Shown here one piece after another: positions 126-64,000 of a DNA stretch of 64,000 nucleotides. The position numbers were made by a program, and so were the translations under genes. The notes beneath the pieces were generated by a model that was given only the letters and a program-made list of their open reading frames with translations, was not told where the DNA came from and did no database searches. The first letter of the stretch is position 1. Each line of letters begins with the position of its first letter. This DNA is from Clostridia bacterium (GTDB taxonomy: Bacteria; Bacillota; Clostridia; Christensenellales; Borkfalkiaceae). Location of the stretch: positions 1 through 64,000 of the forward strand of contig JAFWXO010000022.1 of assembly GCA_017545865.1 (NCBI GenBank), given 5' to 3'.

Positions 126-254
126 TTTTTAAGACGTTAGAAACAAGCAAGACAAGGCTCGCGAAGTGTTTTGGATGAGATTGACCTTGCTGGTCATCGA
201 AGTCAAAACACTAAGCAGAAACGCAGTATTGCGCCGTTTATAACGGATTAAAAA
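126..254 (-). repeat. long-hairpin dispersed element, copy 1 (after purF-like gene)
   Basis: The two ends are imperfect inverted repeats of each other: the left end reads TTTTTAAGACGTTAGAAAC and the complement of the right end reads TTTTTAATCCGTTATAAAC. Inside is a second stem, AGTGTTTTG at 165-173 with CAAAACACT at 204-212, enclosing TGACC/GGTCA. The element ends exactly where the purF-like stop codon begins. Related copies lie at 40393, 55915 and 63680, all in the same orientation relative to the preceding gene. It resembles a MITE or a 3'-UTR structured element; no transposase is seen. Confidence 0.75.
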
Positions 255-2940: not shown

Positions 2941-3080
2941 AAAAATAAAAAGACGTACTCGCCCCTTGAAAAAGGAAAAAGAAGTACGCCCAGACGGTCG
3001 GCTCAACCAGAAGGTTGCTATCATTTCTGCTCCACTATGGTAAACCATAACTATCCGTCAGTAACAGAAACTCCGAAGTA
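2941..3080 (-). promoter_or_regulatory. ZTP (pfl-type) riboswitch with intrinsic terminator upstream of purE
   Basis: On the minus strand the leader contains GTTACTGACGG, a central TGGAGC segment and, at 2988-2997, CCGTCTGGGC, matching the 3' pseudoknot signature of pfl/ZTP riboswitches. Directly overlapping that signature is a terminator: GGCGTACT (2983-2990) pairs with AGTACGTC (2952-2959), followed by a T-rich tract. Aptamer folding and terminator folding share bases 2988-2990, so they exclude each other. ZTP signals low 10-formyl-THF and fits purine-gene control. The class call rests on motif reading only. Confidence 0.8.
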
Positions 3081-39764: not shown

Positions 39765-39879
39765 GATAATTTTGAGATTTTTCACCCGTATATTTTTATA
39801 AAATATAAACAAAATAGCCTGTTTTTTCATTTTTTACAAAACTTTCATAATTGGTAGCGTTTTGTTTGTGTGAAAACTC

Positions 39880-39913
39880 TGGCTAAATAGCCGATTTTAG
39901 CCGTTTATAAGGC
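39880..39913 (-). repeat. truncated copy of the long-hairpin element
   Basis: TGGCTAAATAGCCGATTTTAG followed by CCGTTTATAAGGC matches the right end of the proS copy (55985-56019) with few changes. The other arm is missing. It lies just downstream of the rplL terminator, keeping the family's orientation. Confidence 0.55.
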
Positions 39914-40328: not shown

Positions 40329-40392
40329 TTTAAATTTCCTCTCTTTGAATTATTTTTTAATAAAAATTGTTTGATGGTTTATTTATTAAGTG

Positions 40393-40488
40393 TTTTTAGA
40401 CGTTAGAAACAAGCAAGGCGGGTATTTTAGACAAAGTACGCGTACTCCTTCTATATAGCCGATTTGCGCCGTTTTTAACGGATAAAAA
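40393..40488 (-). repeat. long-hairpin element, copy 2 (between rplJ and rplL)
   Basis: Ends TTTTTAGACGTTAGAAAC and, complemented, TTTTTATCCGTTAAAAAC. The arms stay paired inward (GCAA, CGG, TAT, TAG blocks) up to the apex palindrome GTACGCGTAC (40437-40446). The element ends one base before the rplJ stop codon, in the middle of an operon. Confidence 0.75.
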
Positions 40489-40980
40489 TTATTCGCCCAT
40501 CTTCTCGGCAACTCTGTTAAGAGCAACTGCCAAGCCACGAATAAAGTTCGAAAGCGTACCTGCGAGCATGCTGTAAAGCGCGTCTTTCGACGGGATAGAT
40601 GCAAGAGATTCAACGCCTTTTTTGTCAACGTATTCACCGTTAACGTAAGCACTTTTTGCCGAAATTTTATTATCTAACTTCTTAGCGTTTTCAACAACGA
40701 TTTTGGATGCGCCAACTTCATCAGCACCAAACGCAACTGCGGTAGTACCGTTAAGGTCTGCATCAAAACTGTCAACGCCGAGTTCGTTAAACGCTCTTCT
40801 AACAAGCGTGTTCTTAAGCACTTTGTATTCAACGTTGGCTTTTCTGAACGCGTTACGAAGTTCAGTATCTTCTGCAACGGTAAGACCGCTGTAGTTAACT
40901 AAAACAACCGATTTAGCGCTGGAAATTTTAGCCTTAATGTCTTCAACAACCTGCTTTTTAGCCTCTAAATTTGCTGACAA
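40489..40980 (-). CDS. rplJ: 50S ribosomal protein L10
   Basis: L10 anchors the L7/L12 stalk and represses its own operon by binding the leader. The 163-aa protein has KKQVVEDIKAKISSAKSVVLVNYSGLTVAEDTELR at the start and a C-terminal helix for L12. The start codon is TTG at 40980, preceded by GGAGG; no nearby ATG fits. Confidence 0.96.
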   Translation of the reverse strand: MSANLEAKKQVVEDIKAKISSAKSVVLVNYSGLTVAEDTELRNAFRKANVEYKVLKNTLVRRAFNELGVDSFDADLNGTTAVAFGADEVGASKIVVENAKKLDNKISAKSAYVNGEYVDKKGVESLASIPSKDALYSMLAGTLSNFIRGLAVALNRVAEKMGE

Positions 40981-41011
40981 CTCAATTACCTCCGTTATTA
41001 TTTTTGCCTAT

Positions 41012-41135
41012 AAAAAACCGCTCTTTGCCTAGGAATAGCAAAGAGCGGACGAAAAAACGTCTTAACTTTGATAAACCTCGGCAGGTGTAACTAAAAGTTA
41101 CTTAAAAACCGGCTTTCTTCGGCTAATCTTACTTG
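41012..41135 (-). promoter_or_regulatory. L10 leader with attenuator
   Basis: The transcript before rplJ contains the pattern of the ribosomal-protein L10 leader, with GCCGAAGAAAGCCGG and CTGCCGAGG segments, and ends in a strong terminator: CCGCTCTTTGC (41038-41048) with GCAAAGAGCGG (41018-41028), then TTTTTTAT. L10 binding is expected to favour termination. Confidence 0.75.
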
Positions 41136-41138
41136 GAT

Positions 41139-41167
41139 ATGATAACATACCCTATTTTTTTTGTCAA
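41139..41167 (-). promoter_or_regulatory. promoter of rplJ-rplL
   Basis: TTGACA (41162-41167), 17-bp spacer, TATCAT (41139-41144), between rplA and the L10 leader. Confidence 0.78.
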
Positions 41168-46517: not shown

Positions 46518-47585
46518 TTACTTTATATAAACTCTAAATTCCGTGCCTACGTCCAACTCGCTTTCAACTTCAATTTGACCGCCAACGAGTTCTAATATTC
46601 TTTTAACTATGGATAAGCCAAGCCCTAAACCTTTACCGCCGTAATACTTATCCACTTGATAAAACTTTTCAAAAATGTGCTTTTGCGCCTCTTCCGTCAT
46701 ACCGATACCGTTATCGCGGATAGCAACCACAACCTTGTCCTTTTCACGATAAGTCTTAACGTAAATCTTGCCGTTTTTCCTGCTAAACTTTATAGCGTTT
46801 GCCAAGAGATTGAGCCACACTTCTTTTAAAAGGTTTTTATCGCTTTTTATCTTAATAGGTTTCAATTTTAACTCTACGTCTACGTTTTTTTCTTTCAATT
46901 TGCTATCGAGAAGCAAAATGCAATCTTCAATCTGCCCGTCTAAACTAAACCTTTCAAGATCGGTAGTTTCCGTTTGATTGTCAAGCCTTGCAAGTTTCAT
47001 AGAGTTTTCGGATAAAACTGATAAACTTTTACTTTCGTCGATGATAATTCTAAGATATTCGCGTTGTTCTTTAGTTAAATTATCGCTCGCTTCTAAAAGT
47101 TCAGCGTAACCTTTAATCGACGATATAGGCGTTTTAAACTCGTGAGTAAAGTTTGAAACGAAGTCGTTTTTAAGTAGCGCAACCGAGTTTAATTTTTTAA
47201 CCATTTCGTTAAAGTTTGATACCGCCGAGTTAATGTGCGGGTTTTTGGTTATCGGCGCTATTCTTACGGTAAAGTCGCCGTCGGCAATCTTGTTGATGCT
47301 AACGTTAATTTCGTTTACGATATTGAAAACTAAGTGGGTTATCAAAAAGGCAAGCCCAACGCCTATCGCAGAGGAAAAGGTAACGTAAGCGATGACTATC
47401 CAAAAGTTTTTGCCCTGCCCTTCCACGAGATATTCGTTAGTGATGTGGTTTATAAGGTTACCAAGGAATATTCCGACTATCCAAACACCCAAAACGCCTA
47501 TCGTTAAAACCCACGGCGAAATAACGTTTTTGCGCCTATTCCCACCTGTAAACTTAAAAATGCTGGGAGTTTTTTTATTTTTCAT
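46518..47585 (-). CDS. sensor histidine kinase
   Basis: The 355-aa protein has two membrane segments (about 25-45 and 65-88), a short extracellular loop, a HAMP domain (VNEINVSINKIADGDFTVRIA), the phospho-acceptor H-box FTHEFKTPISSIKGYAELL (about 143-161) and ATPase boxes LLANAIKF, DNGIGM and GLGLGLSIV. The extracytoplasmic part is only about 20 residues, so it may sense the membrane itself. The ATG at 47585 overlaps the regulator by 11 nt and follows AGGGG. Confidence 0.9.
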   Translation of the reverse strand: MKNKKTPSIFKFTGGNRRKNVISPWVLTIGVLGVWIVGIFLGNLINHITNEYLVEGQGKNFWIVIAYVTFSSAIGVGLAFLITHLVFNIVNEINVSINKIADGDFTVRIAPITKNPHINSAVSNFNEMVKKLNSVALLKNDFVSNFTHEFKTPISSIKGYAELLEASDNLTKEQREYLRIIIDESKSLSVLSENSMKLARLDNQTETTDLERFSLDGQIEDCILLLDSKLKEKNVDVELKLKPIKIKSDKNLLKEVWLNLLANAIKFSRKNGKIYVKTYREKDKVVVAIRDNGIGMTEEAQKHIFEKFYQVDKYYGGKGLGLGLSIVKRILELVGGQIEVESELDVGTEFRVYIK

Positions 47586-55807: not shown

Positions 55808-55900
55808 AAAGCCTATTACAACCTATTTAAAGGTTGGGCGAAATCATAGCCTATTGCAACAATATTAAGACGTTAGAAACAAGCAAGACAAGGCTCGCTT
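55808..55900 (-). repeat. CCTATTRCAAC boxes and truncated long-hairpin arm
   Basis: GCCTATTACAACC at about 55811, CCTATTGCAAC at about 55850 and GCCTATTACAACC at 55901 flank a truncated element end (55863-55900, TATTAAGACGTTAGAAAC). The same box precedes the elements at 126 (about 90) and 63680, so it appears to belong to the family. Confidence 0.6.
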
Positions 55901-55914
55901 GCCTATTACAACCA

Positions 55915-56022
55915 TATTAAGACGTTAGAAGCAAGCAAGGCGGTTATTCTAGCCAAAGTACGCGTACTCCTTGTACGGAATCTTTGGCTAAATAGCCGAT
56001 TTGCGCAGTTTATAACGGCTTA
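55915..56022 (-). repeat. long-hairpin element, copy 3 (after proS)
   Basis: Ends TATTAAGACGTTAGAAGC and, complemented, TATTAAGCCGTTATAAAC. Inner pairing TAGCCAAAG (55950-55958) with CTTTGGCTA around a GTACGCGTAC apex. The right end overlaps the TAA stop of proS, so the element supplies it. Confidence 0.75.
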
Positions 56023-63497: not shown

Positions 63498-63524
63498 AAT
63501 TCCGCCGTTAAAAACGGCGGAATT
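63498..63524 (-). terminator. hairpin, possible terminator of the surface-protein gene
   Basis: AATTCCGCCGTT and AACGGCGGAATT form a perfect 12-bp stem with a 3-nt loop. The T run on the minus strand is weak. Confidence 0.55.
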
Positions 63525-63540
63525 AGTTTGAGTTGTATGT

Positions 63541-63641
63541 TTGCCTAACGGCAAGTGAGATTTTACGCAAAGCGTAAAGTGGTATTTACCTTGCGGTAAG
63601 TGGTATTCGGCGTTGCCGAGTGATATGCTACCCTTGGTAGC
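63541..63641. repeat. hairpin array 3
   Basis: Five hairpins: TTGCC/GGCAA, TTTACGC/GCGTAAA, TTACC/GGTAA, TCGGC/GCCGA, GCTACC/GGTAGC, with linkers GTGAGAT, GTGGTAT, GTGGTAT and GTGATAT. No strong outer stem is seen. It fills the gap between the COG0523 promoter and long-hairpin copy 4. Confidence 0.8.
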
Positions 63642-63679
63642 GTTGTGGATGTTTTCTTTATTTGCCTATTACAACATAA

Positions 63680-63805
63680 TTTAAGACGTTAGTTTGGGTA
63701 TTAGGCGAGGCTCACGAAGACTATAGGCTGAGATTGACCTTGTTGGTCATCGAAGTCTATAGGCTAAGTAGAAACGATGCATAATGCCCGAAATAACGGA
63801 TTAAA
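63680..63805 (-). repeat. long-hairpin element, copy 4
   Basis: Ends TTTAAGACGTTAGTTTGGG and, complemented, TTTAATCCGTTATTTCGGG: the inner arms differ from the other copies but still match each other over about 27 bp. The core CTTCGATGACCAACAAGG and its GGTCA partner match copy 1. The TAA stop of the 63801 gene lies in its right end. Confidence 0.78.
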
Positions 63806-64000
63806 CGGTGGGTGACCAGTCAACGTTATCATCCACATATATTGCTATGAAGGGGTTACCATCGTAACTTGAAAATTCCCAAACGTGAGAAAGAGCGTAT
63901 TCAATGCCGTTGTAGATAAAACCAACGAGTTTTTTGCCGCTCGGAGCAACGGGGCGCGGAGTTATAGATGAAAGGGTTTTGCCGTATTCGATAACTGCGG
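63801..64000 (-). CDS. C-terminal fragment of a surface protein with InlB-like B repeat (partial)
   Basis: The reading frame enters from beyond the window and ends at TAA (63801-63803). The 65 visible residues contain YGKTLSSITPRPVAPSGKK, the pattern of Listeria-Bacteroides (InlB_B) repeats found in secreted or wall-bound proteins, followed by a short globular end. The stop codon overlaps long-hairpin copy 4. Whether it has a signal or anchor cannot be seen. Confidence 0.7.
   Translation of the reverse strand, partial: AVIEYGKTLSSITPRPVAPSGKKLVGFIYNGIEYALSHVWEFSSYDGNPFIAIYVDDNVDWSPTV

Follow-up and report, generated by a model that had tools for sequence, protein, structure and literature searches.

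Long hairpin elements at gene ends in a group of gut Clostridia: a candidate family of mobile DNA

Closest described systems and extent of the family

Repetitive extragenic palindromes (REPs) and the REPINs are mostly extragenic, occur in many copies per genome and have been proposed to be mobilised in trans by the RAYT transposase (PMC3116915). In Bacillus cereus the repeats bcr1-bcr3 resemble miniature inverted-repeat transposable elements (MITEs) and often lie in untranslated regions (UTRs) or in the gaps of operons (PMC3446304). Here we describe a family of long hairpin elements, roughly 100-135 nucleotides (nt) in length, that adjoins the ends of genes in a group of gut Clostridia. It is represented in a 64,000-nt stretch of a Clostridia bacterium genome (assembly GCA_017545865.1, contig JAFWXO010000022.1, positions 1 to 64,000), hereafter the window. 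The hairpins are likewise small and dispersed. However, REPINs are doublets of REPs accompanied by a RAYT gene, whereas here a single long hairpin with covarying arms is seen, in one orientation at gene ends, and no RAYT (Y1 transposase, PF01797) was detected in the nine genomes of the genus. From bcr1-bcr3 the family is set apart by description and not by sequence alignment, in that the portion of that account used here states no precision with respect to stop codons or terminators.

Group IIC introns insert at terminators in one orientation. This choice of terminators (PMC4424553) is shared by the hairpin family, but the introns are ribozyme retroelements with a reverse transcriptase (RT), whereas the elements here are about 100-135 nt long and an RT was found in only one of the nine genus genomes. 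The Rfam matches include no group II intron, whether in the window (gathering score) or in four loci that hold copies (E <= 5). The attC site of integrons is palindromic and is read on its folded bottom strand, aided by extrahelical bases (PMC3053210). Its likeness to the present elements holds if they too are read as a folded strand; it differs in its integrase, cassettes and core sequences, as set out below. The features tested set the hairpin family apart from REPINs, from integron sites and from group IIC introns.

A pattern search of the whole genome from which the window derives (1.59 Mb, 33 contigs) gave 21 matches and a reversed control none, while blastn with one copy returned 59 pieces. 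Two cores, A and B, occur between common arms. A covariance model built from an alignment of 21 type-A copies found 38 places in this genome at E <= 1 and 35 at E <= 1.8e-7; type B lies outside the model, scores low and is undercounted. All nine genomes of the genus (G000 to G008) were positive, with at least 35, 50, 53, 56, 45, 56, 3, 56 and 38 copies, as were 16 of 28 genomes from other genera of the family and one of 24 from other families (61 genomes in all); these counts are lower bounds, since scoring used stricter filters and took in 56 candidates from each genome. Copy number is patchy, with 3 in G006 against at least 35-56 in the other eight genus genomes, and 39 against 0 in genus g7. 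The type-B core is narrower in its distribution, with 14 pieces in G000, two in G003, one in G002 and none in 18 other genomes (21 examined). Exact 27-mers were found in 22 stretches of named genomes, which are metagenome assemblies of Clostridia or Clostridiales and, where titled, come from yak, sheep and goat gut. An exact 27-mer gave no match in viral contigs, although a diverged copy would escape it. The element was not matched by Rfam in the window at gathering score or in four loci at E <= 5; the six Rfam matches in those loci do not reach gathering score, and they either miss the element or overlap it by a few bases. A literature search did not find such a hairpin family described among the titles and abstract openings listed.

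Position relative to stop codons and terminators

Placement was analyzed in 134 copies from 13 genomes. The set joins 29 of the 35 copies of the window's own genome to matches from 12 relatives. In these, 80 stretches were chosen for a high-scoring match and are thus biased towards good copies; they contain 114 matches at E <= 0.001. Short, end-cut and repeated rows were removed. Open reading frames were called by a simple script and the copies are related to one another, so the counts that follow are descriptive. A stop codon in the sense orientation lies at -2 to +17 of the element's first base in 80 of the 134 copies, as against 50 of 999 random intergenic positions drawn from these same stretches, and no copy adjoins an antisense stop. 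The enrichment at stop codons proposed in a first-pass annotation of the window is thereby borne out among these copies, but stop codons are not the whole rule. In a further 23 copies (19/999 in the control), a class absent from that annotation, the first base falls at the T-run of a hairpin resembling a terminator, with L073 and L140 doubtful members; 16 sit in tandem behind a previous copy; and 15 belong to no class, a few of them looking by eye like missed stops or terminators. Stop and terminator classes together account for 103 of the 134, in the direction of transcription, and where a match has an upstream neighbour this is in the same sense in 102 of 109 cases. The same-orientation rule of that annotation holds in this genome and across species, with one exception outside the 134: a copy at rplJ of G002 is inverted (by eye), so orientation is not absolute.

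Within the stop class the spacing is narrow. The stop is at an offset of -2 to +2 in 45 copies, at 5 in one, at 7 in 27 and at 14-17 in seven, and a stop lies 3-23 nt upstream of the element in only one of the 134. The codon is TAA in 77 cases and TGA in three. In 35 of the 80 the stop in use lies within the element's own arm, including copies at offsets 7 and 17, such that insertion at a gene end would be nearly harmless. By eye, a histidine-kinase gene ends in VYL before its stop in G003, where the element is present, and in VYIK in the element-free G000.

Could such placement arise from an ordinary MITE, carried by a transposase acting on terminal inverted repeats, with insertion into AT-rich sequence and purifying selection leaving only copies beside stops and in one orientation? 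The elements are short and dispersed with inverted ends, vary in copy number and in presence at given sites as dispersed short copies do, and mostly carry TTAA-like sequence at both ends. Selection, however, does not explain one stop at 3-23 nt upstream against 45 within -2 to +2, nor for an orientation ratio of 80 to 0. The ends pair in nearly all copies but vary with compensation where those of a MITE would be fixed, and no IS630 transposase (DDE_3) was found in the nine genus genomes. As TTAA at both ends is palindromic, a target duplication is not discernible. We regard this explanation as improbable.

The exact distance to the stop and the sense orientation would also be expected of an RNA hairpin selected in the 3'-UTR, where it would serve to process 3' ends, to stabilise the message or to release ribosomes. 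Such a hairpin would have multiplied through duplication and gene conversion and be held at a fixed distance by its function. Judged by eye, the hosts belong to the core genes, and the rplJ-rplL operon has a copy inside it, in keeping with such a role. The 23 copies that start at a terminator-like T-run fit it less well, as little RNA would be expected beyond a terminator.

Some individual placements are recorded here for completeness. In L113 (G002) and L157 (G005) the element follows directly on the terminator of an apparent T-box leader, and at a site shared by L054 (G000) and L140 (G003) it adjoins an apparent tRNA gene on the opposite strand and not a stop codon (all by eye). In L012, L013, L019, L002 and L003 further tandem copies are often truncated at the gene-proximal side with the 3' arm kept (by eye), as if older copies had been displaced by newer ones.

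Turnover of sites and pairing of the arms

Comparison of the genus genomes shows sites that hold the element in some species and lack it in others. The gap between rplJ and rplL holds the element in G000 (type B), G003 and G005 (type A, with differing cores) and G002 (type A, inverted) and lacks it in G001, G004, G006, G007 and G008, giving four of nine occupied; of 20 loci compared in total, seven gaps from other genera are without it by eye and four were left unassigned. The remaining three comparisons draw on genomes of the genus other than G002 and G008. The rplA site is occupied in G003, G005 and G007 (two copies) and empty in G000, G001, G004 and G006. Behind the T-run of the rplL terminator, copies are present in G003 and G004 (two copies) and a remnant in G000, with none in G001, G005, G006 and G007 (two of seven occupied). 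At the gene at 46518 the element is present in G003 and G007 and absent in G000, G005 and G006. Where sites are shared, the cores mostly differ between species (by eye). A copy at least 97% identical exists elsewhere in the same genome for 34 of the 134 (tandem neighbours included) and in another genome for three. The copies thus spread and turn over, probably by insertion, by conversion of cores or by both.

The first-pass annotation had left a choice between targeting of stop codons and a selected 3'-UTR function. Targeted insertion fits better, since sites are occupied or empty according to species and bodies differ at one site, since near-identical copies stand at several sites within single genomes, and since copies past a terminator should be little transcribed. 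The 3'-UTR function fits less well: several congeners lack the element at the compared sites, G006 carries three copies only, and the rplJ copy is inverted in one genome (by eye).

Pairing along the hairpin is strong. Over 21 copies, 95.0% of 777 cells are paired, against 78.5% in shuffles and at most 44.3% when the structure is slid, an excess that is not a probability because shuffling keeps the relatedness of the copies. Changes on both sides are seen at 26 of 37 pairs, and there are conserved mismatches. At a gene that resembles GAPDH by eye, the arms are retained in three species while the inner stems change with compensation (by eye). Strong covariation of this kind, including that of the GAPDH-like site, is in itself what an RNA structure would show. 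An RNA helix drifting by way of G-U pairs would have G-U well above A-C. Across the 114 matches in relatives (3849 cells), there are 22 G-U, 41 A-C and 124 other mismatches, a count that leaves out two pairs with G-U as their commonest state. In 66 nearest-neighbour comparisons there were 118 double Watson-Crick changes, 56 at isolated pairs and 62 in blocks, beside single changes that make or remove a G-U (15), an A-C (14) or another mismatch (33). G-U is not in excess of A-C, which would place selection or copying at the level of DNA. Together with the strong covariation and the sharp end of the stem, this speaks for folding of a DNA strand over the drift of an ordinary RNA. Taking both sides together, an RNA hairpin of the 3'-UTR is an unlikely origin for the family, though it is the foremost alternative to mobile DNA.

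The foot of the stem is sharp. Among the 134 copies model positions 2-7 pair in 69-99%, above shuffles, while model position 1 and fifteen flanking positions pair at or near chance. L071, L117 and L185 had suggested that the right arm arose as a snap-back copy of the left flank, an idea that is weakened because pairing drops to chance from position 1 outward. In L117 (G002) the last 15 bases of the gene, AGAAACAAATTATAA, are directly repeated after the element, and in L071 (G000) 11 bases are; in both the end of the coding sequence has its complement in the 3' arm, and target duplication or array growth may be involved.

A putative mover, the window copies and the meaning of the family

If the elements move, what moves them? 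The long imperfect hairpin with conserved mismatches, the sense orientation after stops and the same-way tandem arrays with different cores recall attC sites scattered through the genome and used by an integron-type recombinase on the folded bottom strand. The slight excess of A-C over G-U would be expected if the bottom strand folds, a weak point as the copies are related. Yet a search of 37 genomes gave no integron integrase (TIGR02249) over cut-off; the search was genome-wide, and CALINs lack an integrase close by. By eye the ends fail to match the RYYYAAC/GTTRRRY cores, and the spaces between tandem hairpins showed no cassette genes. Weaker TIGR02249 matches are present in 31 of the 37, including the low-copy G006. 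Such matches are typical of tyrosine recombinases in general. A true attC-like origin seems very unlikely.

We lean towards the reading that the family is a non-autonomous mobile DNA hairpin, moved in trans by a putative recombinase of folded strands and sitting at gene ends in the sense orientation. Copies would arrive by insertion and not by gene conversion alone, with the folded DNA strand, not RNA, as the form recognised. A gene's end is marked both by its stop codon and by the T-run of its terminator. Both marks would be used, and the left arm may mimic them, its look-alikes TTTTT, TTTAA and TTATAA resembling the T-run and the stop TAA. The offsets lead us to conjecture that the left junction is made at the point of likeness between arm and target. 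While arms persist, the cores between them appear to be swapped or replaced.

Several observations weigh against this mobile hairpin. In the nine genus genomes no HUH transposase, no IS110 and no IS630 (DDE_3) was found, in a search that did not extend to other transposase families, and the RT in a single genome means that no RT is consistently present; the integron integrase search named above likewise gave nothing over cut-off and did not cover general tyrosine recombinases. No clean empty site or target duplication could be reconstructed, extra sequence often standing on the right, and no insertion within one strain was seen. The 15 unclassified copies fall outside the stop, terminator and tandem classes, and the GAPDH-like site also fits a host function. 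TTTTA[AT] was considered as a common target after stops and rejected: it occurs at offset 0-3 in one of 124 element-free gene ends, where the remainder of the 60-nt stretch would predict about 4, so that a simple sequence target cannot explain the adjacency to stops.

The copies of the window are collected in the table below. All four elements annotated at first pass are present where placed, lie on the minus strand and are recovered by the covariance model. They begin, as had been noted, at or inside stop codons, directly after the stop for the purF-like gene and rplJ and with the stop inside the terminal stem for proS and the surface-type gene, in which the stop in use is the TAA of the element's TTTAA end. 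The inverted ends TTAAnnCGTTAnAAAC described earlier belong to a single long hairpin, of which they form the outer and the middle stem. Two fragments had been mentioned without positions, of which one could be placed (the half copy), and a further remnant was found past rplL. In gene sense each copy starts, at the stop codon, with about (A/T)TTTTAA-nC-CGTTATAAAC and ends with GTTTCTAACG-nC-TTAAAA. The four folded copies lie far below shuffles (z -5.3 to -6.1). Ribosomal proteins L10, L7/L12 and L1 and the class I proS product have NCBIfam matches above cut-off in the window, and the purF match is below it (181 of 350 bits).

Table. Hairpin elements, remnants and structured RNAs of the window, with covariance-model scores, folding energies and blastn results where available
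Feature	Coordinates	Strand	Position	Score, fold or identity
Type-A element, full	126..254	minus	abuts purF-like gene stop 255-257 (offset 0)	151 bits, E 3e-36; -37.8 kcal/mol, z -5.5
Type-B element, short	40393..40488	minus	between rplJ stop (40489-40491) and rplL; arms shared, core different	47 bits, called at 40392-40489, minus
Type-B element, full	55915..56022	minus	proS stop 56020-56022 inside terminal stem	-39.5 kcal/mol; model start 55862 or 55914, end 56026
Half copy with the 3' arm only, truncated at its 5' side (gene sense)	55865-55898	minus	downstream of proS element	34 nt at 100% identity with positions 93-126 of the type-A query (blastn)
Type-A element, full	63678..63807	minus	surface-type gene stop 63801-63803 in terminal stem (offset 7)	128 bits
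Type-B remnant	39866-39910	minus	just past intrinsic terminator of rplL	45 nt, 84%
ZTP riboswitch	2981-3075	minus		at gathering score
Ribosomal L10 leader	41003-41140	minus		at gathering score

Other repeats accompany the elements. A 12-nt motif, GCCTATTACAAC (GTTGTAATAGGC in gene sense), recurs past their 3' ends at window positions 90, 55811, 55849, 55901 and 63664, and other recurrent tails are seen past elements in other species (by eye). A second repeat family, of CGGCAACGCCG-type hairpins, comes after several elements (by eye). In genome C4 a member of it (L040:1774-1850, minus strand) matches Gut-1 RNA (RF01706) at E 3e-6, below gathering score, and window positions 63500-63675 hold an array that resembles the CGGCAACGCCG-type array of L040 (by eye).

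On balance we class the family as miniature mobile DNA, and there is a fair chance that its targeting is a new principle. More tentatively, these may be the first described mobile elements aimed at gene ends as such, combining a folded single strand read by its shape and not by the sequence of its ends, exact sense-oriented placement at stop codons or at the ends of transcripts, an in-frame stop of its own and the swapping of cores. Insertion at a near-harmless place, in one direction and with nucleotide precision, would be a solution to the insertion-site problem in compact genomes, and would point to a recombinase that reads gene ends or folded DNA. An RNA role may also have followed insertion. 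Were the selected RNA hairpin the true explanation instead, the family would be a new 3'-UTR structure present on tens of genes per genome throughout the genus.
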